NCBI GenBank assembly: GCA_950295325.1
Contig: OX485803.1
Span: forward strand, 15,314,001-15,378,000
DNA from: Polytrichum commune
Taxonomy: Eukaryota > Streptophyta > Polytrichopsida > Polytrichales > Polytrichaceae
DNA length: 64,000 nucleotides
Reading direction: 5' to 3'
A model generated the notes under the pieces. It did no database searches. It was not told the origin of the DNA and saw only the letters and a program-made list of their open reading frames with translations. This document shows, one piece after another, positions 886 through 64,000 of the stretch (position 1 is the first letter of the stretch; every line of letters starts with the position of its first letter). The position numbers and the translations under genes were made by a program.

Positions 886-3800
886 GTGAGTGACATGTAT
901 TTGGAGGGTTTTCGCATTGATTTGCTAGTAGCATTAGAGTTATTCTTTAACTCATTGGGACTTTTTGACAGGAGTTGGTCCCTATGGTCTCCTATTGGTT
1001 TTTTTGCATACAAAATCAATCATTTCTTTCCACTTGTACGCACGCTTGGAGGTAGTAGTATGGAATTCTGAAGGCAGAACATTCTATATCGGTCCATTGA
1101 GGGCCAAACTCATTTTAGCACCCCTTGGCATGCGAAAATGAGTTCAACCCTCCATGAACTAATGTAGAATGTTCCGCGATCAAAATTCCATACTACTACC
1201 TCCAAGTGTACACGGAAAACTTACTGAACATTGGAAAGTGTTGTAGTCAAACATCCCAACTCCCCACCAAAAGTCCTTCTGAGTTGAAGGATTACTCTGT
1301 TTTAGAGGTATCCTTCAATTCAACATGACTTTGGAGTTGGTTGTTTTGCATACAACATCTTCCATATTTGATAAATTTTCGGTGCATGATTGGAGATAGT
1401 AGTGTGGAGGCTTGACCAAAGAACATCGATATCAATTCATTGAGGGTAGTATGGCATGCCAAGAGGTTCTACAATGAGTTTGGCCCTCAATGAAGAACCA
1501 AAATAGGTTGGTCTTCATTTAAATTCAAACACTACCTCCGAGCATGCACCAACACAAGTGGAAAGAAAGAAATTTTTTATATTGTATGCAAATCAATGAA
1601 TGAAAGATCATAGGTGACCAACTTTTGATGTAAAGTTCCATTGAAAGGATAGCTCTTTTGTGGTTGAAGAATCAATTGGCAACTAAATGTTTTCAAGAAG
1701 GCTCTGCAGTAGTTCAGTATGATCTATTGGAGGTATTTCATAAGGATGATGTTCCCTTTTTTGAAGATGTAGGCTTACATTATTTTTGTTTTTACAGGTT
1801 TGCTTTCAATCTCTTTTTGAGGCAGGTCCCCCTTTGAGTACTGCTCCCCCTGTACTGCGGTTTTTGCTACCATCAGGGCGCCACGTTGGTGCAAAATCTT
1901 TGAACATTTCAACAACAACAACAGCAACAACATTCATAAACTCTCAGTTACCAGGCTCTTTGTTACCACTGGAGTATATAGGCTCAAATCCCACACTGGA
2001 GAGGCTATCAGCTTCTGATATCTTGGAACCCCTAGTGCAACCACTATTTGGGAAATCCATAAAATTGTTGACGCAGGTCCTTTCCCTTGCCCTATTTTTA
2101 TGCACAAATTTTGTGTCCTTGTTTACAAGAAGTTTGTAAATGCCATTAAGTATAGGTGGTGTATGTTGACTTCCATGTTGAGGTTGTTCCCTCTTGCTCA
2201 CAAAATTCTCAGATAATAGAGATATCCTTTAGTTCAATGGGACCTTTTGTTTCGAGTTGGTCCCCATTATGATTTTCCAGTGGTTGTTTTGCATACAAAA
2301 TCAATCATGTCTTTCCACTTGTGGTGCATGCTTGGAGGTAGTGTTTGAATATGAATGAAGAGCAGCCTATCTTGGTTCTTTGAGAGCCAAACTCATTTTA
2401 GCACCTCTTGGCATGCCAAAACGAGTTTCATCCTCGATGAATCAATATAAAATGTTCTTTGTTCAAACCTCCAAACTACCTCGAAGCATACACTACAAAC
2501 TTTTCGAACATGGAGGTGTTTTATGCAAAACAACCAACTCCCGACTAAAAGTCATGTTGAATTAGAGGATAAGTCTAATAGTTGAATACTGGAAATTGAT
2601 GCACCCTCTTACACCAACCCATGGCTAAGTTCACTATTGCTCAATCACAATAGAGCTATGCACTAACCCAACATGACTTTTGGGTAGGATTTGGTTGTTT
2701 TGCATCCACCACCTTCCAAATTCAGTAAGTTTTCGGTGCATCCTTGGAGGTAGTGTGGAGGTTTGAACAAAGTGCATTCTATGTCAGTTCATCGAGGATG
2801 AAACCCATTTTGGCATGCCAATAAGGTCCTTAATTGACTTTGGCCCTCAACGAACCGAAACAAGCTGCTCTTTGTTCAATTTCAAACACTACCTCCGAGC
2901 ATGCACCACAGTGAAAAAAATGGTTGATTTTGTATGCAAAACAAGCAATGGAACCTCATAGGGTACCGACCTCCGCATGAAAAGTCTTATTGACTGAAAG
3001 GTTAACAACTCTAATTACCTTCTATGTTTACTACGGGCAATGCTGACAATCAGTCCTTTCATGATCGTAGGTGCACAAGAAGAAATCCATGAGTCAACAG
3101 CTTCGTATACAGCACAATGAGTGTGCGGGCTGTCAGAAGGAGTTGGATGTTGTGACAGGTGTTGTATCAGGATTGGCTCAACATTTTAGATTGCGCGGTC
3201 CACAGTGGTGTGAATACAGTGGCCAACTCTTTTGCTGTGTCTGTCACTTGAATGAGCTTGCTGTGTTACCAGCACTCGTCTTACAGCACTGGGATTTTTC
3301 TCCTCAAAGGGTCTGCCAACTTGCCAAGGCATTTCTTGATTCAATCTATAACCAGGTTTAAATTCCCCTCTACTTTGTGCATCATCATTTTTGACACTTC
3401 TGATTTGGGGGAGGGTTTAGAGTTATGCTCTAGCTGTGGTTAAGGATTTGATATTGTGATCCTATGTTTGTTGTATAATGAGCAGACTGTCAATGGAGAT
3501 GAGGGTTCAAACAAACAAAACAAAAAGTAAATTACTTTGTCACCGACAAGGGATGCACAATCAATGTCATGTATAGTAACTATTGATAATGTACTACCAC
3601 TGCTAACTCAATAACCAATATTGTTGCAACAACGTTTAGGATGTGTATCAATTGAAACAAGATCGGGACACTTAATAGTTCTATTAGTGCGGGCCACAGC
3701 AGTTCTTTAGAATGCACAGTAATTCTCAGAATGAGAATGAATGTGGGCCACGTTAGAGTCCAACCCACGCCAAATCTCTAGTTTAAAATTCGTGTAGGCC

Positions 3801-10608: not shown

Positions 10609-11271
10609 CTATGTTCGGGGAAAACCGACGGCTAGTTCATTATCAGCCGATGGATTTCCCCTCATGGCCGGTCCAAATTTCCAACCATCGGATGGCAATC
10701 CGATTGTAATTTCAATCCTCCGGCAATTAGCCGATGGACCAGAAAATGTCCCGGAAATGTAGTCGATTCTTCTTGTGAGTTACTGGATTTCAGCCGGAAG
10801 CATCCAAAGCGCTATTTGTCTGGGGCATCTGATGATGCACTTCAGGAAGTACCCTAAACCTTAAACTTTTTGAATTATGCAACCTTTCAATGACCAAATC
10901 CAATTGCTTCTATGAAGAATTGGGGGACCCTTGGCCTTCAGGCGGTGAAGGCATTGCTAGGTTCAATTCCTGCCAAGGATATTAACTCTTCAAATTTAAA
11001 GTTTTGAACATGCTTTTCTTTTCACTTATTCAAGATTTTGTACTAAGAAATGATTTCTAATAACTTTTTATACATTTTTTAAACAATTATTGCCGATATG
11101 AATTCCATTTAATCGGATATTGGCCAATGAAAATATGAAAATATAGGCAATTGGCCGATTGATTTTACAAAAGACCGGCTGTTGCCGATGTAAATTGGAA
11201 AAAAATCCGACCCTTCGTAGCAACTACCGTCAATTAGCCACTAGGGCTTCAAAAACTTCCCGAACTCTGGT
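10609..11271. mobile_element. Family E-like element, related in reverse to 38.3-38.6 kb
   Basis: Left end ATGTTCGGGGAAAACCG; right end AAAAACTTCCCGAACTCTGG, an imperfect inverted pair. The stretch around 10960-11260 (GGTTCAATTCCTGCCAAGG, ATTGGCCGATTGATTTTAC) is the reverse complement of 38313-38630. GGTTCAATTCC resembles an RNA polymerase III B box, so part may be tRNA-derived. Confidence 0.6.
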
Positions 11272-11334
11272 CCCGGGTCCTTGGGATAGAAAGCTTCCAA
11301 TTGTCACATAAGATAGTGGATATATACTATGGAC
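11272..11334 (+). repeat. 63-bp perfect direct repeat, right copy
   Basis: Second copy of 10546-10608. Identity ends exactly at ATACTATGGAC; the next bases differ between the two copies. Confidence 0.95.
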
Positions 11335-11496
11335 ATGTTGCAGAAACATAATTTAAGTAAGCCATGTTGCAGATTCCACAATCGCATGTGCCAAGCTGCC
11401 ACCTCCGGTCGCCTGCAAATAGTGGATTTGCCATTTTTATGTGAGTTACTCTGGAGACTAGGATTCCCACCTTTGAGCTTTCGTGGGTGCATGTTA

Positions 11497-11995
11497 GGGC
11501 CACTTCACACACGAGCCAAGAGCCGTGACCTTGGAATTGTGAGAGCCCAAAAGAAAGTGTCCAAAGGCCGTCCCACCGCACCTCCAAAATCATCTAGTGT
11601 GATCACGGACCCTCAAGTGTAGTGTGAAGTCATATGTGACTAGGCCCTCAACCAAATGCTATTTCAATGAATTTCTGTTTTTGTGGGTCCTCACACATGA
11701 TAACATAGAATAAATCAACAGTCGTGAGTGTTTGGAGTGCTATGGTCTCCTGGTTTTGTGTTAGGCCTGCCTCCAAGAGGTGGTTTTTGAGAATAGTCCA
11801 AGTGACCATGAAACATGATCCGTTCGATGCCATGTAGGAATCCATGTGGACTTTACATCCATCGTGTAGTCACATACTCCGTTGGTCCCTCAAGCGTAGT
11901 GTGAAGCGAACTTGGACCGGCTCCGCCCTTTCCACCAATGAGAGTGCTTGAAGTGTAATGGTCCCGGGCTCTCAGTCTTGTGAGTGAAGTGGCCC
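11497..11995. mobile_element. Harbinger-type MITE family M, copy 1 (499 bp)
   Basis: Terminal inverted repeats GGGCCACTTCACACACGAG and the inverse at the right end, flanked by TTA on both sides (11494-11496, 11996-11998). Three-base TTA/TAA duplications with GGGC ends are typical of PIF/Harbinger (Tourist) elements. No transposase frame. Confidence 0.85.
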
Positions 11996-11998
11996 TTA

Positions 11999-25044: not shown

Positions 25045-25566
25045 GGGCCACTTCACACATGACATTTAGGGCCACTTCACACACGAGACTGAGAGCCCGT
25101 GGTCATTACACTTCAAGCACTCTCATTGGTGGAAAAGGCGGAGCCGGTCCAATTCGCTTCACACTACGCTTGAGGGACCAACGGCGTATGTGAATACAAG
25201 ATGGATGTAAAGTCCACGTGGATTCCTACATGGCATCGAATGGATCATGTTTCGTGGTCACTTGGACAATTTTCAAAAACCACTTCTTGGAGGTAGGCCT
25301 AACACAAAACCGGGAGACCATGACACTTCGAACGCTTACAACTGTTGTTTTATTCTATTTTATCACAAGTGGGGACATGCATGAATAGAAATTCATTAAA
25401 ATGGCATTTGGTTGAGGGCCTGGTCACATATTACTTCACACCACACTTGAGGATCCGTGACCACACTACGTGATTTTGGAGGTGTCTTGGGATGGCCTTT
25501 GGACACTTTCTTGTGGGCTCTCACAATTCCATGGTCACGGCTCTTGGCTTGTGTGTGAAGTGGCCC
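25045..25566. mobile_element. Harbinger-type MITE family M, copy 2 (reverse orientation)
   Basis: A full family M unit runs 25069-25566, reverse to copy 1. An extra partial terminal repeat (GGGCCACTTCACACATGAC) lies at 25045. The outermost flanks are TAA at 25042-25044 and 25567-25569. Confidence 0.82.
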
Positions 25567-25569
25567 TAA

Positions 25570-28999: not shown

Positions 29000-31680
29000 T
29001 TGAGTAGGGTAGGACCAATGCGCTCAAATTCACGTTGGATTGCCTGATGTTGGTTTCTTTTCTTTTCATCTATAACTACATTGTTTTGTTTGCTTAGCGT
29101 GGGTTACCATTTGGAATTATGTGTTCCTTTTTTTTTAATACCGATAGTGACATTTTTTACCAACTAGGTTATATCATATTCTTCAGTGTGCACACTAATT
29201 ACACTTAATATGAACACATACACTAAACATCAATAACCCTCTGAAAGTAAGTAACATTAAATGGTAACCCACACTAATTAGACAAAGCAGTGTAGCAGTC
29301 GGTTCTCCCCGTTCCTTGGCAACTACACCATAACCTTCAATCCATCATCCAAGTCACCGATCATCAATTATGTCTTGCTTGAAGAAATTTTGGTGTTAAC
29401 TTATTTGAAGTGCGAGAATGTATAGTAAATACTTATGTACACCTAATTTTGATCCTTGCTCAAACGCTTGGTCAAATTTACCCCCCAAAAAAACTGCACT
29501 AAAAAGGATATTTAGTGTTTGATACACTAAATACAAATGCATACACTAAATGTCAATAACCCTATGAAAGTAAATAACATTAAATGTAAACTCAAACACT
29601 AAATATCAAATATGATTATATGTGAAAGTTACGTGTTTGAATTCAATGCTAGTAAGGATATGAAATCCGTGCTTCACATGAAGGTAGGTGACAGTAGGGA
29701 AGGTAGTGGCAGATTTATGTCTAACACTAATGGTCAAAGAATTAAAAAATTAGCGTTGAACATGGTGGGGTGGTAACAACATTAAATATAATCAAACACT
29801 ATATATCCTTTTTAGTGTACTTATTTTCCGGTGAGAATGCAACATGTAAGAGTGTTGTGGACTATGTTGAATCTTCTTTTAGAATTGAATACATGTTGAG
29901 ACTTGTAAGAGCGTGAGAATCTTGAGGAAACACCAACAATCGTCGATATATGCATGATTTACAAAGGTTGGGACATGCATATCTATTTTTGGTATGGGAG
30001 AGGGGAACAAGTGCTTGTCTTTTCAACTGTAACCAAATTCGTGGTTTGTCCACTAATTATGTTAAAGATGGCCACTCTTTGGAGGCTTTGGCCACGTAGA
30101 GGTTCTCATTTTTGCATGGTCAAGGTCCCTAAAGAAAGGCCCACTTAACCATAATAAGTGGAAAACAAAGGATTACGGTTATAAAGAAAGGGACAATCAT
30201 GTTGCCATACTTCAAGAAGTCTTCAAAACTACACAAAATATGATATTTAACGTTACTTACTATTTTGGAATTACACAATGCTCTAATTGTATATTGTGCA
30301 TCTCATTTTTTACCAACTATGGTTGAATTGGTTGTTTGCACATTGTAGAACATTAACATCTTTACTTGGTAAGAAATTACATTACTAGTAAAAAGATATA
30401 GGAACATGTAACTCCGAACAATACATCACATTGAGTACCGTATTTTGTGTAGTAGTAGTATAATCTCAAAATTTGAAGGGTCCGGAGAACACAATTTAAT
30501 GAACCAATTCCAACGTAGGGATGGGGTAGGGACCCAACAAACACTGCAAGAGAAGAAGAAGAAGAAGAAGAAGAAGAAAAAAAAAGGGTCTAAATTATGC
30601 AATCCAAAATGATCCAAATCATGTTCTTGCATCATTTGGACCAGCTTGCAAAGAACACATTCATGTAGACATGTCCTATTCAGACACCTATCGTGGGTGC
30701 AAAATGGTCCAATATTCTCCTAGAACATACACTTATGATACTAATTTAAGATAATACAATGGCTCATCAATTGGCACAACCAAAAAAGTCAGTGCTCAAG
30801 AAGAAGAAGAAGAAGAAGAAGAACTCCGGTCCCCGGAGGAGGCCGGAGTGAATAAAGTGTATGTTCATAAAACATCCTTGGCCATGCCCTAGGGCAATGG
30901 CGTTAGATGTAAAACTACTTCACCCTTTGCAGGGAGTAGACACTACATTAGTAACTAATAGCCATTACCGGTAACCGGTAGCATGTGACCGCCATTAGCA
31001 GAATTCATCCAATAACATGGCACTATTCTAGGGGGGGGGGGGGGAAGGTATGGTGGGTTGGAAGTTTATTTATTTAGTTATGGCAAGTCATGGAGGTTTG
31101 TGACAAGTTGTCGGTTCTCTAGCCTCTGTTTATGAACTAGTATCAAGTGTGCATATTGTATGGCGATTACGTTGATTTGTTTGAATGTATTGTTGATGTT
31201 CACGACATGGAGTTTAAGCTTTGTTTCCAAGTTTTTCATCGATGGGATGTGTGTTGTGGCTCAACACTTGTTGAACACTTGCTCAACTCTAACCGCATGA
31301 GACACACATTGTTTCTAATCATTTAAAGAAGGTGACATATATTCAATTTGAAAGTTTTGTCACAATTTAATCACCTTAATCTCATTTTTCTTTGACATTG
31401 GATCTCTCTCTAGCTAGCTAGATAAACAATGCATTTAATGCACATCATAAGAGACCAAACCTCATGGAAGTAATTGACATAGTTGTGTGCATTTTGACAC
31501 AATTGTATGTGTTGCTTATGAGCCCGCCCAAATGTCACAAACTTATTATGGTCATTTTGGACGTTGGCATTTAAAGTGGCCCATGCCATCTTGTAATGAA
31601 GTACATACATGGCTGACTCAGTGAGGCCTGGAGAGAGGGAAAATTTTAAATTACCAAAATAAGACTGGCCACAGTTATTA
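29000..31680. other. Intergenic with simple repeats
   Basis: No gene recognised. Contains a ~110-bp segment shared with H2 at 29719-29820, (GAA)n at 30548-30577 and 30798-30825, and a G14 run at 31031-31044. Confidence 0.5.
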
Positions 31681-31770
31681 CCTTTAATGTGGCCCCGTGG
31701 GGGGAAAAGGGGACCAAGGGACACCGGGCCGGGCTGGGGGAACCCCGGCCGCGCTGCGCCCCACCCGTTC

Positions 31771-31798
31771 CCGGGTCGTCTCTCTCGTCCCCATAAAG
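31771..31798 (+). promoter_or_regulatory. Core promoter block of serine-rich gene 1
   Basis: CCGGGTCGTCTCTCT, then CCCCATAAAG (ATAAAG at 31793-31798 as a TATA-like box), about 310 bases before the ATG, in a GC-rich upstream region. The same two blocks stand before serine-rich gene 2 on the minus strand (61761-61735). CT-rich sequence after it is typical of a plant leader. Confidence 0.6.
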
Positions 31799-32107
31799 GA
31801 GCTCGCAGTCGACACACAACTCGTTTTGAAGCTCCTCGCCTCCTCCCCTCTCTCGCATCCCGTCCTCTCTCCCTTGATCCGCTCTCCTGCAGCTGGATCT
31901 CTTATCCAACTATCCACTGAATCTTTTTCTGTCACATTTGGTCCAGAATCGCCTCTGCAAACCGAGTTTTCGTGACTTGTCGGCAGCTGCATCAGAAGTG
32001 GGATGAGTTTGTAGCGGTTTCGTGGATTTGGCGATTTCGTTTCGTTTCGTTTCGTTTTCGTGTTGGCAGATCGGTGGCTTCATTTGAAGACTCGGATTAA
32101 TAGCATC

Positions 32108-32466
32108 ATGTCTTCCGTCGTGTCTACTTCGTCGTCGTCGTCGACGTCGTCGGTGTCTGGGAAGGCGAGTTCGTGTTTGTGTGCGCCCACGACTCACGCG
32201 GGCTCCTTCCGGTGTCGCTTGCACCGCACCCAGCAGTCGTGGGGGAGGCGTCCGTTGCCGAGCTCAGACGTGGACGAGATGTTCGCCTCCGAAGTGGAGG
32301 CGTCCGTAAAGGACGTCCAGCAGACCACGAAGCAGGCATCCGTTGCGTCGTCGTCGTCGTCGACTTCCCCGTTGCCGTCCCCTCCTGCTCGGCGGACGTC
32401 TCCCAGATCAGCCAACAGGCCAAGGTTATCGGTGACGTTCGCGGAAGAAGCTCAGGTCTCCGTCGG
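32108..32466 (+). CDS. Serine-rich gene 1, exon 1
   Basis: Ends in phase 2 immediately before GTGAGT. It carries the whole cysteine motif, (TCG)n-encoded serine runs at about 32128-32150 and 32345-32362, and the VTFAEEAQ block. A TTTCG pentamer repeat in the leader (32034-32058) precedes it. Confidence 0.85.
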
Positions 32467-33007
32467 GTGAGTTGCCCTTTCTACCTCTCGCCCTGGGGTT
32501 TCGTCGACGTATCCCACATTGTAGCAGACTCCCTTCCTACAATACAAAGGTGGATGGTTGTGGTTGTGGTTAAACCTCGAGATTGAACAAAACGAATGTT
32601 TTTTTTCCACCCATACGTGTGGTGTGCACGACAAATCCTTGTGGTTGTGGTCAATGGCAGGGTCATATTGTAAATCATAGAAATCTATCATTGGTTTCGG
32701 TCTTGGTCTCCGAGATTATCATCCTTGTTGGCCATAGATTAAAAGTGTTTTCCTCCTCAACTTTGTTTTCCTCAGACTACACGAGTCAGCCGAGTGTAGA
32801 GTGTGGAGTTGATCGGACATTCGACAGGTGAGGAAATTGCGTGTTCTTGTCTGATTGGTCCTCGGTATGTAAATTTGCAGAGGGCAATTTCACAACGTGA
32901 AGATGGCCACTGGGACCGGAGGCAGCTATGCATCCAAGCGGGGTGCGCGACCTGACTTGTTCAGGATGGTGAAGACCGGCACCACCACTACAAACATCTA
33001 CTTATGA
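32108..33007 (+). CDS. Serine-rich small protein, CLCAPTTHAGSFRCRLHR family (gene 1), two exons
   Basis: Exon 1 is 32108-32466 and exon 2 is 32881-33007. The donor GTGAGT follows GTCGG and the acceptor is TTTGCAG. The joined frame is 161 codons plus TGA. Residues 1-20 are Ser-rich. The motif SSCLCAPTTHAGSFRCRLHR, with two cysteines near a His and a third in FRC, is the signature of plant serine-rich-like proteins of unknown biochemical function. RTQQSWGRRPLP and a Ser/Pro/Arg-rich middle follow, then LSVTFAEEAQVSV. Exon 2 adds GQFHNVKMATGTGGSY, GARP and FRMVKTG. If the intron is retained the protein ends after 120 residues at 32470. I chose the spliced form because gene 2 keeps exon 2 in the same phase. 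The start is the first ATG in frame after the leader. Confidence 0.78.
32881..33007 (+). CDS. Serine-rich gene 1, short terminal exon
   Basis: The first base completes a glycine codon. Twenty-one bases later an internal ATG with AAG before and GCC after begins MATGTGGSYASKRGARPDLF, then RMVKTGTTTTNIYL and TGA. The exon could alternatively be read as a free 34-residue frame from 32903. It is matched residue for residue, with small whole-codon indels, by 60688-60565. Confidence 0.7.
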
Positions 33008-36000
33008 TGGTGACATCCGATTTTCGTGGTAGGGTAAAAACAATTATTTTCCAGAATCTATTGATGTATGATACTTTGGGACAGCGGCACTTCGATGAGG
33101 AGTTTTGTGATTATTTAGTTAACAGTATGCATACCTACAGTCTTGTTCAGTCGGTAAGCATACCTATTTGTATAGATTCCGATGATTTGATTTACTCCGC
33201 CATTCATTCCAACGGCGCGAGAAGAGAGAGACGGCTGCTGCTGCTGCTGTCTTGCACCATTGCAATCTTCAATCAAGTCTTGAGGCGCTGTTCGATTCGA
33301 GGAGGAAGGAAAGGGAAGGGAAGGAAGGGGCTGCCACCACTCGAACCCTAGAGGAAAATGTCTGGGTTTAGGAGTGATGATCATTCGCATGAGCTGGTCG
33401 ATGTCAAGAAGACGATAAGAAAATTTTGTACACAGGGCGAGCATCATGAGTGCTCTTTAGCATGATCCATTTTTTTTTCTGTCTGTCGTGTATCCCTCTA
33501 CAGATTGGCCTGAACACATTCTCAGTGTGTGGAGATGGGCATGGGCATGGGGTTTATTTCAAGTCTTTCACACTCTTGCTCAACTTCCCACAAATCTCTC
33601 AAAGTTTCCTACTCAGAGGTTGAATCAGTCTACTAAACTCCGATCTACAACTGACTCTAGATGGTCTTTCAGCTTACCCTCTCCTCCTCTCACTCACACA
33701 TTGTGTGTCAGGTATGAATTTTTTTCCCTCCGCTATTCTTGCTTGTCAACTAAACCGATGTTCTGGATTGGGTATGTGCACATGCACAAACCGCTAATGG
33801 GTGTAGCTACTGAAATAATTTCTGTCTAAACCCAGTTTCTCATGCAACTACTTGCAACATATGCACAAGCAATTGGATATATGTCCCCAAAAAGGGAAGG
33901 GTGTGGACATCTCTGTGGCGGTTGATTACCGTCGTTAGCCTCGCGACCTGCGTTGGTGAAATTTAGATAGGACTGTCACCATGTACGTATGATTTGAAAA
34001 GTTTGTTGCTTTTTGGATGTGTCTGCAGGTTACCACAGGCGTTCCAATTCGTATAACCTCGGCTTGAATGCGGCAATTACTGTTTCTTCCGAAGCCGGAA
34101 GTTGTTAGAAGGTATGTACTCCCGTTGGCAGTAACTCTAATTTCTTCCTTGCTCGTGACAGATCTTTCTGCATAATGGGCAGACAAGCATGGTTCAAGTC
34201 CATGTGAGATCATCTACGTTGAAGTTGCAAGTGTGTTGCCGCATTTCCTTTTGTGGTCTTCGTGTTAGGGTTGAGGTTTTGCAGCCATTTTGAAAGTAAC
34301 TTAGTGATGTCAAGATGCTGCATCGGGAACTTGTGAGTTTTCATGGTACAGGTTCTTGACTCTTTCGGGGCTTGGGAAGACTAAAAAAGATATGTGGCCC
34401 CATTGTCACATTTGACTCCACAATCCACACATCCCACATGTGTGATCATCAAAATTGTCCTGTTAGCGATTGTCGACTCTAAAGGATTGTCATTTCAAGT
34501 CTCAGAATCGGACTTGAGATGCAAAAGTACAAGCAGGTCAAAGTGAAGATGCTGTTTCTATTTGAAAAATCTATCACATGGAGTTTCCCAAATTTGGCTA
34601 ACTGGAATGGTTAACATGTTTTGAGCACACTAATCCAATCTCACAGGAGTAACACATGTCTCATTACTTAGTGTCCATTCTTACCTTGCCATCATATATC
34701 ATGTTGCCTCTAAACTACAGATGTCCAATAAAGTAGAGTGGCCACACACGGCCCACATACCCTAATATGTCGCCACTCTACTCCGATGACGTTGGCCGCT
34801 TACTGATGGATTGCCATGTGGGCACAACCTCAACAGTAACATGACCTTCAGGTTCAAAAAGGTTTCCTTCTCAGAATCTAGACTAGTTTCTTCCTCCTCG
34901 GTGTCTATTCAGCCTGTGATCCACTTTCTGAATCATGTCCTGCAAAGAGCCACTGTTTGCTTCACGCAAGCAGAATAGTACTACTGCAGGTAGCAGGCCG
35001 GGCCGAGTAATCGCATCCTGATTCTTCATCATGGTGAACTGTGAACGCCAGAAGAATTTACTGAAACCTTTTGATTGTGCATCATGGTGAATTTACGTCA
35101 GGAGAATTTTACTGGAAAACCTTCCTGCCGGATTCAGGTAGTTGAAGTGACAGACCTGGGCAGTATTCCTGGCACCCCAATAACTAGATTTGTTGTACAG
35201 GATTGACGGTGTTGATTATTCTGTCACAAATCGTCCCTCCGAGCATGTGGGAGGCTGGGAGTACAGAGTAACGTTGGAACTCGGAATTCGAGCCCGTCAT
35301 GGGTGGAAGATACTTTTGTGTCATTGAAATTCCAACTTCCAAGGGGGCAGCAGCAGCAGCAGCACCACCACCAAAGGTTTGAAAATGCATTGGAACACGA
35401 GAAGCGTGGAATCTAAGGATATATATATTTATTGATCTGTACTCTCGCAATTCATCCTAAAGATTGGAGATAATTTTATCAGAAAATTTGAAGAGACAAG
35501 TGACAAGGGAAACCTGTTGAGGCCTGTGCCTATGAAATAAGTTCTACCAATTCAAGTTATTCAACAATGTAGAAGAACTTGGGTGGCACTTGATGCCATA
35601 ACCAAACATACATGAAATATATATAAAACACGTACTTTGCCCATGATTAGTCAAACAACAATTTCCATATATCTTATGACAACTTCAGCCTGTCATTTGT
35701 TTCATAACTTGTCATCCTTACCAACGCTTTGGGGATTAGTGCCATTCATGCAAGATGGTGCAGAAAGATTCAACTTCTTATAGGCTTATGGTTGATTCAT
35801 CCCAACTTAATCTCACTACATTGGGTATGGTATTTAGTGTCACATACACTATTTGCGAAGGGCCTAAACAACACTTAAAATGATATTTAGTGTCATCCAA
35901 ATGTCAATCATCTATGACAATATTTCATCACAAGTTGTTGATGAGAGAAGACATGGTTTTGGCCAATGAATGAACTCATCCATCATCCATGACAATATTT

Positions 36001-38240
36001 GTTCACTTATTCATGAGTTGTCATCCAAAAAATTACCATAGTGACATAAATTACCATATGACACTAAATACATTGGATATTTGGTGTAGATGCCTAGAGG
36101 TCTCAAAGTGTCACACCCGCTAATTGTCAATAGATTCCATTCATCAACATAATATGCTCTTTAAAGTGAAAAAATACCTACATTATGACATTTAGAGTAG
36201 CATAGTGGGATCATGTAGATGACAGTCTTGTGTTTTAGTATACAATGGGAAGATCTTTTTGAGCGTACTAATGGCAAGAGGGAGATATTCTTGAGCATGC
36301 TAATGGCAAGTGTCATTTGTGTACACTTTAGTCAATTGTAGACCATTGTGTAACATAGGCATACACCTCATAAAACTATTGAACATACTCGTGCTAAGAT
36401 ATTAGTAAGCGCACTTGAACGCCAAGTGTCATGAGACAACACTTATAGTGAAGTTGTTAATCATCAGTGTATCCTAGCATACGCCTCAAAATAGGTAAGT
36501 GACATTGTTACTCATATGACACTTAATACCATAAATGGTGTTGCTCGTAATATGGTGTCTTTGATTCTAATCTTGTGATTAACTTTGCTGGACACATACA
36601 TTCTAATTCATTGAAGGTTTTCAACGTTTTCACCTTCAACTTACAATTGCATTGCCATTGTTATAATATTTAGTGTCACTACTACTTGGAGTATTGCAAT
36701 GCTATAACTTGTTATTGTTAAGGTAAGTTTTGACCAAGTAAAAATGTTAATGTTCTATAATGTTTAAACAACCAATTTGACCCTTGTTGGTAAAAAAAAA
36801 ATGAGATCTACAATAAATAATTATAGCATTGCGTGATTCCAAATAGTAAGTGACACTAAATATCATAAAAACGGTGTAGACCACCATATGCTATATACAC
36901 AAATAAGCGTACTAAGGGTGAGTCTCCAAGTAGGATGCTCGCCCATTAGATTCTAGATAATATTGGGTCATAGATGTTCTCATGTAGATAAGCACAAGTG
37001 GCCTACTAGAATGTGAGGGTTGTGGACATGGGCCGCTAGACTTTCATGCGCCTACTGAAGCACCGTTTAACCTACAAATGCCGGTCATTGAAGGATAAAA
37101 GACCGCTCTTGGGAGGAAGAGGTTTTAATCTGGAGGAGGTTAGTAGATGGGCCCGGATTCAAGAAGATGAAAATAACTAGCCAACACACACGAACTCTAC
37201 CCCGCATGTCTCCATCTACATTTGGACGAGTTTGTCCTTGTTCCCACTACAATGTGGTGGGCGAGTGGCCTACATACAAACACACCCTAAACCCACCACA
37301 TTTCTTTCTTTCTTTCTTTCTTTCTTTCTTTGGCCACGGAGAACCTACGTGTCCCTTGAGTGCCGTACCATTTGGATAGCTTTTTATATCCAAAGCTTCA
37401 CATCAAAATACGAAGTCACCGGCACCAATCATTGTAGAGTACATTCCACGATAAGGCAAAGCGCAAGCCGTATGCCACCCGTATTCCCATTTTTTCGTAA
37501 ATATTTGGGCTCTTGACGAAGAGTCCCACATCAGACTCAGCATGATAGCTTTTTGAGCCTTGCCCCCAGAGCACTGCCCAGTACTGTGAGGTGCTTCCTG
37601 GGTTCCTCCTTTACGACGCCGGACAATAATGTCCACGTGGGATTTGGATGCGTCTCAAGCAATGTAAGGCTCCCATGTGGCAATGTACGAAGAATACCAA
37701 TGTACCAAGAGCCGAAGTAGCAAGCACTCTACAGATCACGGAATTAGGTTGTTAGGCTCGGCCAAGGATCTGTGGTGTCCACGTAAACTCTACCATTACG
37801 AAGGTGAAAATATGGAGATCTACATACTTCATAGCCTAGAAACGATTATTCTTAAAGGATTCGACTCTGGAAATTGCATCAGACACGTCGAAGTAGTCCA
37901 GTGAAGTCGAACCGGAATGAATTGGCCCTTGACCTGGAGAAGGAGGGGGGTTTGTTGTTCTTATGACCCCTTCATCCACGATGGATAAAGGGGGTTATAG
38001 CAAGAACAATCATGTTGCAAGTTGGAGGCCGGTCTAGTTTAGACTGACCTCGCTAGACCAATGCGGGGCCGTCTGTTGCTATTTCCGGAGTCCGAGCCTC
38101 TCCAAATAATCATTTCCAAGCTACAAAAACACAGATCTCCGCATCAAATCGTCACGGTCCTAGTGGATGGATGCGTATACGTAGACACCACAACTCCCTC
38201 GGGCCCGAGCCATTAGTCAGGCTTCACCAGTCATACCCTC
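33008..38240. other. Intergenic and 3' flank, no further gene recognised
   Basis: Includes a possible 3' untranslated region of gene 1. A (CAG)n/(CAC)n tract lies at 35347-35372 and a (TTTC)n at 37301-37331. Family T remnants (AATACCATAAATGGTG, TAGTGTCAC) lie at about 35830-36110 and 36525-36880. The frame at 33004-33351 is probably non-coding. Confidence 0.5.
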
Positions 38241-38242
38241 CC

Positions 38243-38308
38243 CACACATACTGGTGGCGGGGGGCAGTGAACGGACGAAGTCCGTTCGCCGCCACCAGCA
38301 TGTGTGGG
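38243..38308. other. GC-rich hairpin at the edge of a family E element
   Basis: CCACACATACTGGTGGCGG and GAACGGAC pair with GTCCGTTC and CCGCCACCAGCATGTGTGG around a 3-base GAA loop, leaving a few unpaired G residues. Confidence 0.7.
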
Positions 38309-38312
38309 CCAG

Positions 38313-38782
38313 AGTTCGGGAAGTTTTTGAAGCCTCAGTGGCTAATTGCCGGTAGTTGCTACGAAGGGTCGGATTTTTTCCAATTTACATCGGTAAGAGC
38401 CGGTCTTCTGTAAAATCAATCGGCCAATTGCCTATATTTTCATATTTTCATTGGCCAATATCCGATTAAATGGAATTCATATCGGCACTAATTGTTTAAA
38501 AAAATGTATGAAAAGTTATTAGAAATCATTTCTTAGTACAAAATCTTGAATAAGTGAAATGAAAGGCATGTTCGAAATTTTAAATTTGAAGAGTTAATAT
38601 CCTTGGCAGGAATTGAACCCGTAACTTACCATTTTTAATTTTTAATTTTTTAGGCAAACAAAGTCAAGAATTTCCAAAAAGTTTAGGTAGATTTGTAAAT
38701 AATTATTTTCTGCCTAAGATGCTATTAACCTATGGTAGGACTTCAACCAATTATGCCCAAAAATCTCCCCGAACACGGGCCA
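38313..38782. mobile_element. Family E element with internal SINE-like insertion
   Basis: The left end CCAGAGTTCGGGAAGTTTTT matches the right end of 10609-11271 in reverse. The right part (38630-38782) is a minus-strand SINE-like unit with a TTTTTAATTTTTAATTTTTT tail. Confidence 0.55.
38630..38782 (-). mobile_element. SINE-like element, copy 1
   Basis: Read on the minus strand: head GTTCGGGGAGATTTTTGGGC, then TTGGTTGAAGTCCTACCATA (B-box-like GGTTGAAGTCC), body ending CTTGACTTTGTTTGC, and an A-rich AAATT-repeat tail. Length is about 150 bp. Confidence 0.55.
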
Positions 38783-47240: not shown

Positions 47241-48969
47241 GGTTAACAATGAATGTGGAGTATTAATAAAGGTGATACGAAATTTCTTTACGTTGTGAAA
47301 CTAGAGCCACCAAAAGATCCAAGGAGTATTGTTCATCCTGGCACTGTTCACAAAATACTATTCATAGCAACACTATTCATTGAAAGTACCGCCACTTGGT
47401 ATTATTCCCTCAAAGTATTGGCACTTGGCACTATTCACTGACAAGCATGTGTTTCCCTATGATTGTTTTTATCACTCTACGAACACCGTAGAGCACGCAT
47501 TCATTTTCTTGAAATCTACGATAACCGAAAATGTAATCCTGAATTTAGTCTCACTTACTGTAGTAAGAAATTCCAGCCCTCAATGACTTTGAGATTTGGC
47601 TAAATAGTGCGTGCTTTGGGAATTAACACCACCCTCACTAATTGGGATAATTAGTGTAGCGGTAGATTCTCCCCGTTCATTAGTTAAGGTGTTTATTGGG
47701 TACGGCCCACACGTCCTTCAGTAGGCTGTTAGTTCTATCCATCTAGTAGGCAAAGGAAGAGTGTTGGAGTTGTGGATAGCCTAGTTTCTCAAACAAGGTA
47801 CTACCGTACTAGACTAGTTGGACTAGGCTTGCCACTACGACAATAAAGCCAATTGCATTTGTTGTGTGCCATGGGTTGCGGTTGATGGGGTGGATTGTAA
47901 GGTACGTGTGCCTAAAAGCAACACTTCCAACAAGTTTTAATCTTTTATTGGTTTTAAAGAAGTCGGTAGAGTTTCATAACATGCTTGCAACAAGTATGGA
48001 AGATGTGTGAAGAGTGCATAGATTTTTTTTAAAGAATAAAGTAGTTTATATGCATCCTACAAACATCTGCAATGTCATTTTGGGGTTTAGGCATTTTTAT
48101 TGTCGAGTAGGGAAGTCCACTCTCACATACATTTGTATTGTGTACCTTCCTTTATAACCTCTACTTATGAATCAACCCTAGCAAGCATTAGATGTAACCA
48201 ACCTAGATTAGACTAAACTACAGTAGCTTTTGGTAAAAGGATGGCAATGCTTTTAGACGCATGTACCTGATCTCAACTTTGACCTAATCCATGGTCTTCA
48301 CTCTAATCTAAACTTCGTTGAAATAATCAAATTTCAAAACTACTCTCTAGATTTTCGAAATGCCACACTAGTTCCACATACCCTCAAGGTGAGCAGGACC
48401 TGATTCGATTTCTCATCTCAAATGAAAATATATACAAATTCAAAGCATATACCAAATTCCTTTGCAATTGAACATGGCTTCTCTATCCACATGCGCGGAG
48501 TAGCCAAAATGCAGGGTTCGCAAATCGGGGTTGTATTTCACAGGGAACATGGAATAGTAACCATCTAAGAGCCTAATCATGTTTTAAGGTTTACTAATGA
48601 CTGCATAACAACTTTATGGTAGAGTCCACAAGCCATTTGGTAAATTGTTGCTACTCTTCCATCCGTTAGGGTGATGAAGATGTAGATAGCATAGATTCTC
48701 AAAACAAAGTCAATACTACAACTACTAGGCCTTGAACTTGCTATAATCATAAACTAGGCTTGGTGACGTAGTAACAAGTTACAACAAAGTCAATTGAATG
48801 CGTAAAGTGTTATTAAGTTGAGGATGGAGTGAACTGCAAGAACTTTCACACCTGAACTCCCATGTAAAATTCGAAATGACCAATTTCAAAAAAGTTGTCT
48901 TTGGAGTTCGAAATATTGCCCGCAATACTTCCGTATACAATTTCAAGAGCCTAAATTGGTTGTGGGTTT
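47241..48969. other. Intergenic, no gene recognised
   Basis: Only short frames, and no repeat with definable ends. Confidence 0.4.
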
Positions 48970-48972
48970 TTA

Positions 48973-49471
48973 GGGCCACTTCACACACGAGACTGAGAGC
49001 CCATGACCATTACACTTCAAGCACTCTCATTGGAGGAAAAGGTGGATCTCTCCAAGTTCGCTTCACACTACGCTTGAGGGACCAACAAAGTATGTGAATG
49101 CAAGATGGATGTAAAGTCTACATGGATTCCTACGTGGCATCGAATGGATCATATTTCATGGTCACTTGGATTATTTTCAAAAATCATCTCTTGGAGGTAA
49201 GCCTAATACAAAACCAAGAGACCATGACACTCTGAACGCTCACCACCATTGGTTCATTCTAATTTATCATGTGTGAGAACACGCATGAATAGAAAGTCAT
49301 TGAAATAGCATTTGGTTGAGGGCGCGGTCACATATGACTTCACACTACACTTGAGGGTCCGTGACCACACTACATGATTTTGGAGGTGTATTGGGGACGG
49401 CCTTTCGACACTTCCTTTTGGGCTCTCACAATTTCATGGTCACGGCTCTTGGCTTGTGTGTGAAGTGGCCT
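48973..49471. mobile_element. Harbinger-type MITE family M, copy 3
   Basis: Starts GGGCCACTTCACACACGAGA; ends with the inverse except that the last base is T (GGCCT). TTA on both sides (48970-48972, 49472-49474). Same orientation as copy 2. Confidence 0.85.
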
Positions 49472-49474
49472 TTA

Positions 49475-50854: not shown

Positions 50855-52240
50855 AAGGAGCTTGGTTTCAAGGTTGGTCCCTCTTTTATTTATTGGGTAG
50901 AATCATCCGTTTTCATCTCCAATCCAAGACATCGTTTTTGCAAGGCTTAGAAACCTTTGTTTGATCAGAGTCGGAAACCGAAAGAAGAGGGACTGACCTT
51001 GAAATCCAACTCCTCGACATTGGACACATGTCAAGGCCGAAATTCTTTTACCTTGGCTCACCAAACTCCATTTCCGAAACCGGCGTTTTTGAACATGTGT
51101 GGCATGCCCTTCAACAACCAAAGCAAGCCAATCGAATGTGTGGAGTGCCATGGGGTGTAAATTGTGTGTGTGTGTGAGGGGGGCTAGAGTTAGGCGGGCG
51201 TCAAGTGTTGGTGCAAGGAAGGGGCCGCAACTCCCTCTTGTATTTACTAGGTAGAATCATCCGTTTCCATCTCCGATTCAAGACATCGTTCCTGCAAGGC
51301 TTAAAAATCTCCGTTTCCGATTGGAGTCGGAAACCAACAGAAGAGGGACCAGCCTTGAAACCCAGCTCCTCAAAGTTAGCCACATGTCAAGGCCGAAACT
51401 CTTTTACCTTGGCTTACCAAACTCCGTTTTCGAGCGTGTGTGGCTTCCCTTCGGCAAGTGAGTCAATCAAAGGTGTGGAGTGGCATGGGTGTGGATTGTG
51501 GGGGGGTTGGAGTTAGGCGGGCGTCAAGTGTTAGTGCAAGGAAGGGGCCGCAACTCCCTCTTGTATTTACTCGGTAGAATCATCCGTTTCCATCTCTGAT
51601 CCAAGACATCGTTCCTGCAAGGCTTAAAAACCTCCGTTTCCAATCGGAGTCAGAAACCGACGGTTTAAACCAACAGAAGAGGGACCAACCTTGAAACCCA
51701 GCTCCTCGAAGTTAGCCACATGTCAAGGCCGAAACTCTTTTACCTTGGCTTACCAAACTCCGTTTTCGAGCGCGTGTGGCCTCCCCTTCGGCAAGTGAGC
51801 CAATGAAAGGTGTGGAGTGGCATGGGTGTGGATTGTGGGGGGGTTGGAGTTAGGCAGGAGTCAAGTGTTGGTGCAAGGAAGGGGCCGCAACTCCCTCTTG
51901 TATTTACTGGGTAGAATCATCCGTTTCCATCTCCGATCCAAGACATCGTTCCTGCAAGGCTTAAAAACCTCCGATTCCCATCAGAGTCAGAAACCGACGG
52001 TTTACACCAACATAAGAGGGACCAGCCTTGAAACCCAGCTCCTCGAAGTTAGCCACATGTCAAGGCCAAAACTCTTTTACCTTGGCTTACCGAACTCCGT
52101 TTTCGAGCGTGTGTGGCCTCCCCTTCGGCAAGCGAGCCAATGAAAGGTGTGGAGTGGCATGGGTGTGGATTGTGGGGGGGCTGGAGTTAGGCGGCCGCCA
52201 AGTGTTGGTGCAAGGAAGGGCCGCAACTGGCAGCTAGTAA
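50855..52240 (+). repeat. Tandem array, ~335-bp unit, four units plus a stub
   Basis: Unit landmark TCAAGTGTTGGTGCAAGG occurs at 51201, 51524, 51861 and 52198, giving periods of 323, 337 and 337. Other constant parts are TAGAATCATCCGTTTCCATC, CAAGACATCGTTCCTGCAAG and CCACATGTCAAGGCCGAAAC. The first unit (50855-51200) is the most diverged. Frames through it are not conserved between units, so it looks non-coding. Confidence 0.88.
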
Positions 52241-57059: not shown

Positions 57060-60000
57060 TGGTTGTTTGATTTTTGTCAAGGGAGATAAGCAACTTATAC
57101 CATGCCCACACTAGGGCCAAGCGCTGCTCCTTGGCAACAACATGAGTCCCTCTTGCCCGGGAAAGTTCATCACTTTCCGAGACTTACTGTTACCAATAAG
57201 GATATTCGTCCTACTCACAGAAACGTCACCAAATGCAATGTACTGTAGTTTCGCCGGTTGCAGATGAAGACAAGAACTCCTGTCAAGATGGAAACCCTCC
57301 TATTGGTGTGGGCCAGTCGTTAGTCGTAGTGTGAGCATGATATTAGCCTCTTTGACAATGGAAAGGGGGCAGGAAGTTCAAGTGGACGTCGGTGTGGAGT
57401 AAGATCCCAGAACTTTATCTTCATCTCCAAGAATGGCCCTGCTGGGAATCTCTTTATCCACTTTCCTTTGCTGAATATTTGTTGAAGAAACACGTGGACC
57501 CAGGCTACTTATCCAACTACCCCCATAGTTGGAGCTGTCGTACATATATATAGTCGCAAGCATGACCCATAATCCATTATTCCCTGTATTAGGTGTTCGG
57601 CTCTTGTGAATAGACTATCTTTATGACTTTGGTTTGCCTTGTGGAGCTTCGGGTTTTTGTGTTTTTGTTTGTAAATTTCTTTTTAACATCGAATGGGAGT
57701 TGCATATATAAATTGATAAGAACGTAAACAAAGGTATGTGGGTGTTAATTGGTTCATTTTCCATGTTGTCCAACTTCTACCCATTAGATTTACACAATAA
57801 AAACTTGTGTTGTGTTAGCAAATGTACGATGAAACATTGTAAAAATTGGATTGAAAATTGGACCTCCCTTGACTAAGTTATGCTTATCGGAAGTGCATGT
57901 TTGTTGATTTCTTAAATGAGTACATAGGTCCTCCCATTTGTGTTCACTACTGAGTGTAGAGTAGTTATGAATATTTGAAGACATAATCCAATCCCTTTTG
58001 AACATGTGTCTTTATGACGTTTGCTCTTTAATCCTCACCAAACCACATATCAATCAAATATAGGGGTCTGATTAAGAAAACGAGTCACTTGAGACATGTC
58101 TACCTTACACCCCCAAGAGACAAGCCATAAATTCCTTGCAAGGTAGAAGAAATGCAAGAGGGAGAGTGGGGCTTTATTATACTGACTTAGATTTAGAAAG
58201 ATAACATTAGTTCCTAGACTGAGTAAAATAATATGAAACTGGGATGGCTTATGAAACTAAACCTACATCAAGATGGTGTCAAAAAGTCCAATTCCTTACA
58301 TCATCGGAGTGTCGGAGTGCCGTAGCCTCCGTGAGATAGAAACTACTATCAACTTGATGAATCGTTTGGAAGGACTTTTGACACTGCATAGTACAACATG
58401 CTCAAAAAATAGGGAAGGAAATTCATGTGTAATGGAGTTGTGGAGGGGGCAAAAGTGTGCCTCATTTTCAAATCTCAGTCATGCAAAGTTGATTGGTGAC
58501 CTCAAGTTTGGAATTGTTACTGGACGCTTGGGATATTTGGACTCTAAATGATCAATGCAAACTTTCGGTGGACCGGTGGCAACGACAGCATGCAGCAACA
58601 CTGATACGACAAGGTGACGAGAAACTTACACAGATTACAAAGTGCATGGAGAAAGCCATACCCAACCAAATTGGTCGCATGTTGAGTAAAAACACTTGAG
58701 AAGGTCTACTGTACATACCTTGTAACCTCGTGAAGGAGCCTGCAGGAGACATAAAATCAGGAACCAAAAAGGTCTGACATGTGCTGAAGATGAATCTGGC
58801 ATTTAATTATTCATGTCAGTTATTAGTAAGGATAATGCGTGGTGAATCCCAAGCTGGATGGGTACTGGCCCAAAGAGTGTGATCATCATCAGTCTCGCAA
58901 AGAATCGTATTAGATCAAGTGACGAGTGCATGATTGCAGGATTTCGGGTTGGGCATGTCATTTTGTCTTGCATACTTTCCAGGGTTTATGGTCAACAAAG
59001 GATAACAAGTCTATTTGTCAATTAATGTCCAATATGAGTCTTCCACCGTGGAGTGGTTTTGGATTCTTGAGACTTCAAGATTATTATTCCCTCCCTTATC
59101 ACCGTCATCACAAGTTTTAAACATCAAAGAGAAGTTACATACTCCTTGCCTCACCCAATTTGCAGTGCAAGTTAATAGAGTGGTAATACACAACCAAAAC
59201 TCTGCATTTTAACCCTCCTAGGCAAGCCTGCATCCGGGATCGGCAGAGGCAATCATCACAAGAGTTTGCAAGGATTAGGGGAATTAGGTGAACTTTCGAT
59301 TCTGAATGCATAATCAGAGCAAATATACGTGAGAATTGCAAGTTTGAATTTGATCTTTCATGGATTCGAACCATGCTTATCTGCCCATTGTGCAGGAAGA
59401 TCTTGGATGGTGATGATGATGTTGATGATGACTCTTGATTAATCCCAACATTTCAAACTGGAAGAAAAAAATTCTCACCTTGAATCGATACCTAGGACGT
59501 AGTAGTTGCCAAGCATAATGTTAACTTTGACTCCGATTCTGGATCGGTGCCACCATTTTGCTTTTTCGAGAAAACAAGCAGTTAACAGGGACACACGGAG
59601 GGCCTGCAAGTGGAGAAGAATCAGTGGCACATGACGAGACATCAGGAGTTATTGTCGGTCGGTTGGGAGAGTTCGGAGATTATCCAGGAACCCCAAATTG
59701 CGGTGTTTGCATGTCCCCAGTGGCAAATATTTGCAGTTCCTAACCTCATCTCTCTAGAAGATTTCTATATTTCCGCAACGAAGACCACCTCAACCAATGA
59801 GTAGAAGACATGTAGATATTCAAGGAAACGGTGGGCGCAGGGGCCGGGTAAGTTATGGGGCGGTTAATTACCTCGACCGAGTTATAAACATCAACATATC
59901 GGCATGCCATTGATGGTTGTTAAATGTCACAGTTGCTGACTGATACATGCACCTTGTAATTACAGGCGCCAACACAACCACCTGGAACTACACATACAAA

Positions 60001-60560
60001 TACGGTGAAGTGAAAAAAATGTGAAATCATGTTGATGATGAAGGCCCATCGCTCCTTGTTTTTTGTGCACAATTTGGTCAAGCATGGTATCCAAAAGCTC
60101 AGACCTGTGATTCAAGCTCAAACAGACACAGAAATCCATCCCAGGAAATTGCTGTGAGTAGTGTTTTGTGAATTGTGAACAATGCTGCTTGACTCAAATG
60201 TACATCATCATCATCATCATGCTAAGAGCATAAATGTTGCTCGCACTATGTACAAAATTCCTTCGTCCACCTCGGGACGATAGATATTGACAAAATACTC
60301 ATCTGACCAGAACAATATCCTAAGATGCCTGAATTAATCCTTCCTGCTTGTGTGACGTTGTCAAGGAGTGGAGGGGTTAAGCAATCGATACTGGTGCAGC
60401 TTCTATACAAAAGGTTACGCGGTTGTTTCTTTCCGGAGTTTGGCAGCGAGAAAATCATCACTAATTACAGAATGAGGCAAGGCGCTGAGTGGTTATAATA
60501 ATATCACACATAGTAGCCTGCGGGGTATGTTACCTACTCGAACAAAAATTTTAAGGCAAT
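57060..60560. other. Intergenic and 3' flank of serine-rich gene 2
   Basis: A repeat D relic lies at 57935-58100. The region 58260-59800 looks less repetitive and has several 60-90-residue frames on both strands, none with a motif I know. Confidence 0.4.
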
Positions 60561-60564
60561 CTTG

Positions 60565-60688
60565 TCACATGCAGATGTCGGTTGCCGAATTGCCTGTCTT
60601 GAGCATCCGGAAGACTGAGCTAGGTCGTGCACCGGCTTGATAGCTACCTCCGGTTCCGGTGGCCATCTTCATGCCTTGAATTTGCTCT
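60565..60688 (-). CDS. Serine-rich gene 2, short terminal exon
   Basis: Starts after ATTACAG and has the same 22 bases between acceptor and internal ATG as gene 1. From that ATG it encodes 33 residues, about 21 of them identical to gene 1 exon 2. Even the intron sequence before the acceptor is similar to gene 1 (TCTGACTGGT against TCTGATTGGT). Confidence 0.7.
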
Positions 60689-61385
60689 CTGTAATGTACA
60701 GGAAATCGGTAACCAGTCAGATTCAACAGTTTAAAACATCAACTTGCAAGTGGAAAAGAAAAATACTCCCCGTAATAGAATCATCCTCTAACTCAACACG
60801 ACATTCAGTAGGGAGTTGATCGAATTGCATACAACACCTTCCATATTCAGTAAGCTTTCGGTGCATGCTTGGAGGTAGTGTGAGGTTTGAAAAACGAGAT
60901 AGGTTGATGTTCGTTCAAATTCAAACACTACCTTGGAGCATGGCACCATCACATGATGCATATTAGAATTTACACTGGAATGATGATCAGGAGGAGTTCA
61001 TTAGGATGATGCAAACGCACTCTTGATGAGACTTGTCTGCGTTGGGATGATTTGCGTCCGAAGAGTCTTCTTGGGAGAAAGTGACCGTGTGCTTGAGCCG
61101 AGAGGTGCGTCGGGGTGAGGTGGACATGGAAGTAGGTGACGTGGCGGGAGAAACTGACGAAGCTCGGCTTGAACTCGAGCAGCTCGATAGATGATCCCTA
61201 CCCTCCACCGAAGCTTCAACTTCCGCTGCGAAATCGGTCGCGTCCTCCACCGACGAAGACCGAGATGGCAGAGGTCTCCGCCCCCACGATTGCTGCGGTC
61301 GGTGCAAACGGCACCGGAAAGAGCCCGCGTGCGAGGTCGGGGCACATAAACATGCCATCTTCGGAGAAGTCGACGGCGAAGACAT
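60565..61385 (-). CDS. Serine-rich small protein, CLCAPTSHAGSFRCRLHR family (gene 2), two exons
   Basis: Exon 1 runs 61385-61033 and exon 2 runs 60688-60565; joined they give 158 codons plus TGA. The N-terminus is shorter than in gene 1 (MSSPSTSPKMACLCAPT), then SHAGSFRCRLHRPQQSWGRR. A Ser/Pro-rich middle contains an acidic stretch EDATDFAAEVEASVEG parallel to SEVEASVK in gene 1. LKHTVTFSQEDSS follows, and exon 2 supplies EQIQGMKMATGTGGSY, GARP and FRMLKTG. The donor GTCTCA is weak; without splicing the protein is 132 residues, ending at 60987. The ATG is the first in frame. Promoter block and TATA-like box lie at 61761-61735. Confidence 0.75.
60775..60975. mobile_element. Family F MITE fragment in the intron of serine-rich gene 2
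   Basis: Contains TTGCATACAACACCTTCCAT, GCATGCTTGGAGGTAGTGTG and AACACTACCTTGGAGCATG, as in the PX-gene introns, but the central part is deleted. It lies between the two exons, next to the alternative stop at 60987. Confidence 0.7.
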
Positions 61386-61734
61386 TCTTAAAATAAAAAC
61401 AAGAACTCCTCCCGAGCAAGAAAATTCTCAATCAGCTCCAAATCAGCTCCAAATCGGCTCCAAATCGGTTCCAAATTAGCTACAGAAATTTCTATCGTCC
61501 TCCCGCCTGCTCTAGCCAACACTTCGGAGCTTCCGGAGCTTGCTTGGTTACCTTCGTGTGCAGGTTACAAGACAGCGAATAAGCTTGCGAATATGGAAGC
61601 AAAAAAGTGGACCGGAGGAATCAGTGGGAAGCCAGAGAAACAGAGAATATTACAGACCTCAAGGATTGAGAGCACGAGAGAGAGAGCGAAAGAGCGAAAG
61701 AGCTCGAAAACGAAGTGATTGTCTTCGGTGGCTA

Positions 61735-61761
61735 CTTTATGGGGAAAGAGAGACGACCCGG
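61735..61761 (-). promoter_or_regulatory. Core promoter block of serine-rich gene 2
   Basis: Minus strand CCGGGTCGTCTCTCT then CCCCATAAAG, about 350 bases before the ATG, identical to the gene 1 block except for two or three bases between the parts. Confidence 0.6.
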
Positions 61762-61799
61762 TGGAACGACGGGTGAAGGCCGGGTGACCCGGCGGGTCT

Positions 61800-63862: not shown

Positions 63863-63865
63863 TAA

Positions 63866-64000
63866 GGCCCACTTCACACACGAGCCAAGAGCCGTGACCA
63901 TGCAATTGTGAGAGCCCAAAAGAAAGTGTCCAAAGGCCGTCCCAACACACCTCCAAAATCATGTAGTGTGGTCATGCACCCTCAAGTGTAGTGTGAAGCC
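63866..64000. mobile_element. Harbinger-type MITE family M, copy 4, cut by window end
   Basis: GGCCCACTTCACACACGAG after TAA at 63863-63865, in the orientation of copy 1. It continues beyond the window. Confidence 0.8.

Follow-up and report, generated by a model that had tools for sequence, protein, structure and literature searches.

Two copies of a small plant gene were found in a window of 64,000 nt of Polytrichum commune DNA (contig OX485803.1, positions 15,314,001 to 15,378,000). Gene 1 lies on the plus strand and gene 2 on the minus strand (Table 1). Both encode the motif CLC[AS]PT.H.GSFRC near the N-terminus, as CLCAPTTHAGSFRCRLHR in gene 1 and CLCAPTSHAGSFRCRLHR in gene 2. On this motif we take them to be members of the plant serine-rich protein-related or serine-rich protein-like family. 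The Arabidopsis members, AT5G25280 and AT5G11090 among others, likewise carry the motif followed by a serine-rich stretch. These end near the position at which exon 1 ends here, and an extra terminal exon is not known among them. The terminal block that follows exon 1 in both copies is referred to as the tail.

No Pfam model is known for the family, and neither the two full proteins nor the two tails gave a Pfam match above cut-off. The sole match listed was Period_C on gene 2 (E 1.1; 9.6 bits, cut-off 25). PDB sequences gave 0 matches to a profile of the tail and 0 to a full-length profile. Pattern scans of prokaryote contigs (two of two scans) and of viral sequences (one of eight scans) gave 37, 66, and 218 matches and no confirmed relative, which is expected of a plant gene. 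A text search of the literature with motif strings gave no match, and none of the papers listed in a broader search was on the serine-rich protein-like family by its title. In two papers, AT5G11090 is the homologue of a soybean drought association candidate (PMC10902137) and AT5G25280 stands in a table of up-regulated genes (PMC4436139).

Table 1. Features of gene 1 and gene 2 and their surroundings, in window coordinates.
Feature	Position	Strand	Description
Gene 1 conserved block, putative promoter/5' leader	31766..31869	+	blastn against the gene 2 block, 54.5 bits
Gene 1 exon 1	32108..32466	+	ATG 32108 to GTGAGT donor
Gene 1 predicted intron	32467..32880	+	GTGAGT donor; CTGAT 27 nt before intron end
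Gene 1 predicted terminal exon	32881..33007	+	41 codons and TGA 33005-33007; internal ATG 32903
Conserved block, presumed gene 1 3' UTR	33422..33466	+	blastn, 47.3 bits
Predicted tRNA-like three-way junction behind gene 1	34160..34212	+	blastn (65.3 bits), folding, and covariance model
Gene 2 conserved block, putative promoter/5' leader	61668..61768	-	CCGGGTCGTCTCTCT..CCCCATAAAG; blastn 73.6% over 106 columns against 31766-31869
Gene 2 exon 1, to candidate donor 61020	61020..61385	-	ATG 61385; CLCAPTSHAGSFRCRLHR motif
Gene 2 candidate intron	60689..61019	-	AGA/GTGCGT donor; CTGAC 29 nt before acceptor
Repeat in gene 2 intron, putatively MITE-like	60773..60953	-	blastn; relatives at ~1195-2908
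Gene 2 predicted terminal exon	60565..60688	-	40 codons and TGA 60565-60567; internal ATG 60666
Conserved block, presumed gene 2 3' UTR	60216..60259	-	blastn 84.4% over 45 columns against 33422-33466
Predicted tRNA-like three-way junction behind gene 2	59351..59403	-	blastn, folding, and covariance model

The duplicated unit and the rest of the window

The two gene regions were compared by blastn (30000-36500 with 63500-57000) and had five strong blocks in common. These were the upstream block, presumed from its position alone to be a promoter, the core of exon 1 (32174-32259 with 61352-61267, 75.2 bits), the tail (32875-32981 with 60694-60591, 68.0 bits, 74.5% identity over 110 aligned columns), a block in the presumed 3' UTR, and a tRNA-like block. 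Three more short matches of 31.9, 29.2, and 27.4 bits were at about the chance level, gene 1 having reached a maximum of 31.0 bits against 88 other 2.6-kb stretches of the window. Intron and UTR sequence around the tail blocks gave mostly no blastn alignment between the copies. Since conserved blocks flank the tail on both sides, it is part of one duplicated unit. The copies have diverged strongly, with a tail dS of 0.95 and exon 1 near saturation. The tail is therefore at least as old as the duplication that gave rise to the two genes, and could be commonplace in the source lineage. A hairpin shared by the two 3' blocks was considered and dropped. The gene 2 block forms it on folding (z -1.17 against shuffles); the gene 1 fold differs and is no better than shuffles (z +0.66).

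The window held 30 ORFs of at least 110 aa. Ten of them were searched in Pfam and one was above cut-off, a PX domain (PF00787, E 4e-6, 27.7 bits against 21.6) in an exon-like frame at 274-1071 on the plus strand. Relatives of the gene 2 intron repeat lie at ~935-3015, where direct and inverted repeats are clustered. A dispersed repeat family of ~500 bp, with copies 88-93% alike, is present at least four times (11494-11996, 25065-25569, 48969-49474, and 63863-63998, the last cut by the window end). A further repeat pair (10960-11273 and 38306-38619, 95% alike) has a B-box-like end, GGTTCAATTCC, and is perhaps SINE-like. Direct repeats 75-88% alike occur at a spacing of ~340 bp in 50878-52228.

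The tail and signs of selection on it

The tail block is 124-127 nt long. In both copies it has the order given in the earlier note: an AG acceptor, 22 nt, and an ATG. The ATG opens a frame of 33-34 residues with a TGA stop. The tails, GQFHNVKMATGTGGSYASKRGARPDLFRMVKTGTTTTNIYL in gene 1 and EQIQGMKMATGTGGSYQAGARPSSVFRMLKTGNSATDICM in gene 2, are 41 and 40 residues long, shorter than the ~48 residues first estimated. Each was matched in the window by the protein of the other copy (tblastn, E 2e-8 and 3e-6), as was exon 1, and the similarity of the tails exceeds chance. Among the tblastn matches listed for the two proteins in the window (E cut-off 10) there was no third tail. Gaps in the blastn alignment of the tails total 6 bases (5 + 1) and 3 bases, so the phase is kept as had been claimed. 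The further claim that the indels are whole codons reflects where the protein alignment places them and is no independent result. Both tails have a GC content of 55% compared to 40-45% in the introns and presumed 3' UTRs.

In both copies the seven codons that lead from the acceptor to the ATG contain no stop in the phase of exon 1. Identity between the tails begins at KM, the first of ten identical residues (KMATGTGGSY) whose codons have three synonymous and no non-synonymous differences. AAGATGGCC surrounds the ATG in both copies and is a good start context. A structure prediction of the tail, with two short strands, was set aside for its low confidence (mean pLDDT 59.7, pTM 0.26).

Nei-Gojobori dN/dS between gene 1 and gene 2 was 0.28 for the whole tail and 0.18 from the ATG; for exon 1 it was 0.13 over 92 codons, with pS near saturation at 0.735. 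Each value is a single pairwise estimate with no error attached and excludes codons opposite gaps. The whole tail had 35 differences in 39 aligned codons, with 16 amino-acid changes where 21.7 were expected from random placement of the differences (3000 trials, P 0.0037). From the ATG there were 29 differences in 32 codons, with 11 amino-acid changes against 17.8 expected (P 0.0003). Tail differences at codon positions 1, 2, and 3 numbered 13, 6, and 16. The six differences in the seven codons ahead of the ATG were all non-synonymous, which limits the visible protein selection to the part from about the ATG onward. The earlier note had thought such selection likely and had named a dN/dS near 1 as the contrary outcome; this one comparison, at 0.28, supports it. 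A comparison of gene 1 with gene 2 cannot show constraint in both lineages.

Candidate splice sites and explanations for the tail

Donor sites were scored with an approximate matrix over the 7614 GTs of the window. The strong in-frame GTGAGT donor reported earlier for gene 1 held up, with CGG/GTGAGT at 32467 scoring 3.98 and ranking in the top 1.2%. The GT at 32828 scored higher (4.56) but would leave an intron of 53 nt. If gene 1 is left unspliced its frame stops at TGA 32468-32470, within the donor itself. The gene 1 intron had no other blastn match in the window at E 1e-3. In gene 2 the matching-phase donor of the earlier note, CAA/GTCTCA at 61032, is weak as stated, indeed very weak (-4.8), but a better in-frame site, AGA/GTGCGT at 61020 (-1.35), had been overlooked. 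Within the exon 1 frame of gene 2 no in-phase GT is better, but over the whole stretch from the ATG to the acceptor it takes only 11th place, and its score is reached or exceeded by 33% of the GTs in the window. Ten gene 2 GTs beat it. Two of these are in the exon 1 frame and out of phase (61201 and 61351) and eight lie past the stop, the best being 60931 (2.07, inside the intron repeat) followed by 60837 and 60973. The surroundings of the two donors are alike, GTGAGTTGC at 32467 and GTGCGTTTGC at 61020, and CTGAY precedes the intron end in both genes. On sequence, a terminal exon spliced in frame is well supported for gene 1, which has the sequence elements of one.

The tail is probably the second of two coding exons in a small plant gene, added to exon 1 by splicing. 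Exon 1 would contribute the CLCAPT..HAGSFRCRLHR motif and the serine-rich stretch, and removal of a phase-2 intron would append the 40-41 residue tail. In gene 1 the stop TGA sits inside the donor, so that a form retaining the intron would stop at once and splicing would decide whether a short or a tailed protein is made. The gene 2 splice may persist through 61020, less efficiently. As a guess at function, the tail would probably be a short linear segment for interaction or regulation.

The main rival, rather unlikely overall, is that the tail is a separate ORF of 33-34 codons with its own ATG, located toward the 3' end of the mRNA or on a shorter transcript. The intron would then follow or span the stop of exon 1, and the agreement of frame would be accidental. 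A separately translated downstream ORF would explain the conservation nearly as well, since selection on the protein is seen only from about the ATG. The identity that starts at KM with silent differences only, the shared ATG context, and the eight GTs past the gene 2 stop that outscore 61020 all fit it, and the low rank of 61020 means that the gene 2 tail may be such an ORF. Against it are the good gene 1 donor, which puts the tail in frame where chance would do so one time in three, and the few codons ahead of the ATG, which stay open in exon 1 phase in both copies. Also unlikely is a split between the copies, in which in-frame splicing of the tail takes place in gene 1 and gene 2 has been uncoupled by donor change and the intron repeat, leaving its tail a relic or untranslated. 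The weak in-frame donor of gene 2 and its competing GTs, the best of them in the repeat, are consistent with this. The frame of the gene 2 tail is still open, a weak counterargument as 12% of random 120-nt stretches of the window are open in a given frame. Conservation of the block as RNA, such as a splicing enhancer or a structure, would be in keeping with the other, non-coding-looking conserved blocks of the duplicated unit. It is nevertheless highly improbable, given the excess of silent changes, the uneven spread over codon positions, and gaps that sum to multiples of three.

The predicted tRNA-like block behind both genes

The 53-nt block lies 1153 nt past the stop codon of gene 1 and 1162 nt past that of gene 2. 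Its predicted minimum-energy fold is a three-way junction in both copies (-16.5 kcal/mol in gene 1, -14.0 kcal/mol in gene 2). The folds beat shuffled sequences by a moderate margin only (z -2.10, 4 of 200 shuffles as good, and z -1.67, 14 of 200, respectively). All 15 pairs of the gene 2 fold are standard in both copies, gene 1 having one more pair per hairpin, and the only change within a pair is U-G to U-A. Differences fell at 1 of 30 paired positions and at 6 of the 21 unpaired ones (one-sided Fisher P 0.015), a mild test because the structure was derived from the same two sequences. One hairpin, CATGG TTCRANT CCATG, contains GGTTCRANTCC, the T-arm/B-box consensus. This string occurs four times in the window, of which the 53-nt blocks account for two and another repeat pair for two, and so is not special alone.

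The predicted fold had no D arm. ARAGORN predicted 0 tRNAs in the window and Rfam gave 0 matches there at gathering score. At a lax Rfam threshold the one match overlapping the gene 2 element, a weak speF leader, was taken as chance (13.2 bits, cut-off 37, E 2.9), and no match overlapped the gene 1 element. A covariance model built from the two sequences found no convincing third copy in the window, the next best of nine matches listed having E 1.4. The block was rejected as a coding exon; in gene 2 the frame that opens at its ATG reaches a stop after three codons, and the differences avoid the stems.

As predicted, the fold would share with the tRNA-like sequences of mobile plant mRNAs a closing stem and two hairpins, one of them with a T-loop-like TTCRANT. 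Unlike those sequences the block here is ~53 nt, lacks a D arm, and is a candidate part of the transcript. Two papers report that an mRNA can become mobile through a tRNA-like sequence transcribed together with it (PMC8166872, PMC7356335). The former describes dicistronic tRNA-mRNA transcripts from the vascular plants studied there, and from neither Physcomitrella nor Marchantia (PMC8166872). It is quite doubtful that the duplicated unit of 2.4 kb forms a compound gene for a serine-rich protein, with the gene 1 tail switched on at the stop-containing donor and a transcript reaching a D-arm-less tRNA-like element for 3' processing or RNA mobility.

Should the tail be added by splicing, this little-studied plant family would have a selected C-terminal module, with a built-in splice/stop switch in gene 1. 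The tRNA-shaped block offers a precise target for asking if tRNA-like structures are a conserved feature of the 3' regions of plant genes.
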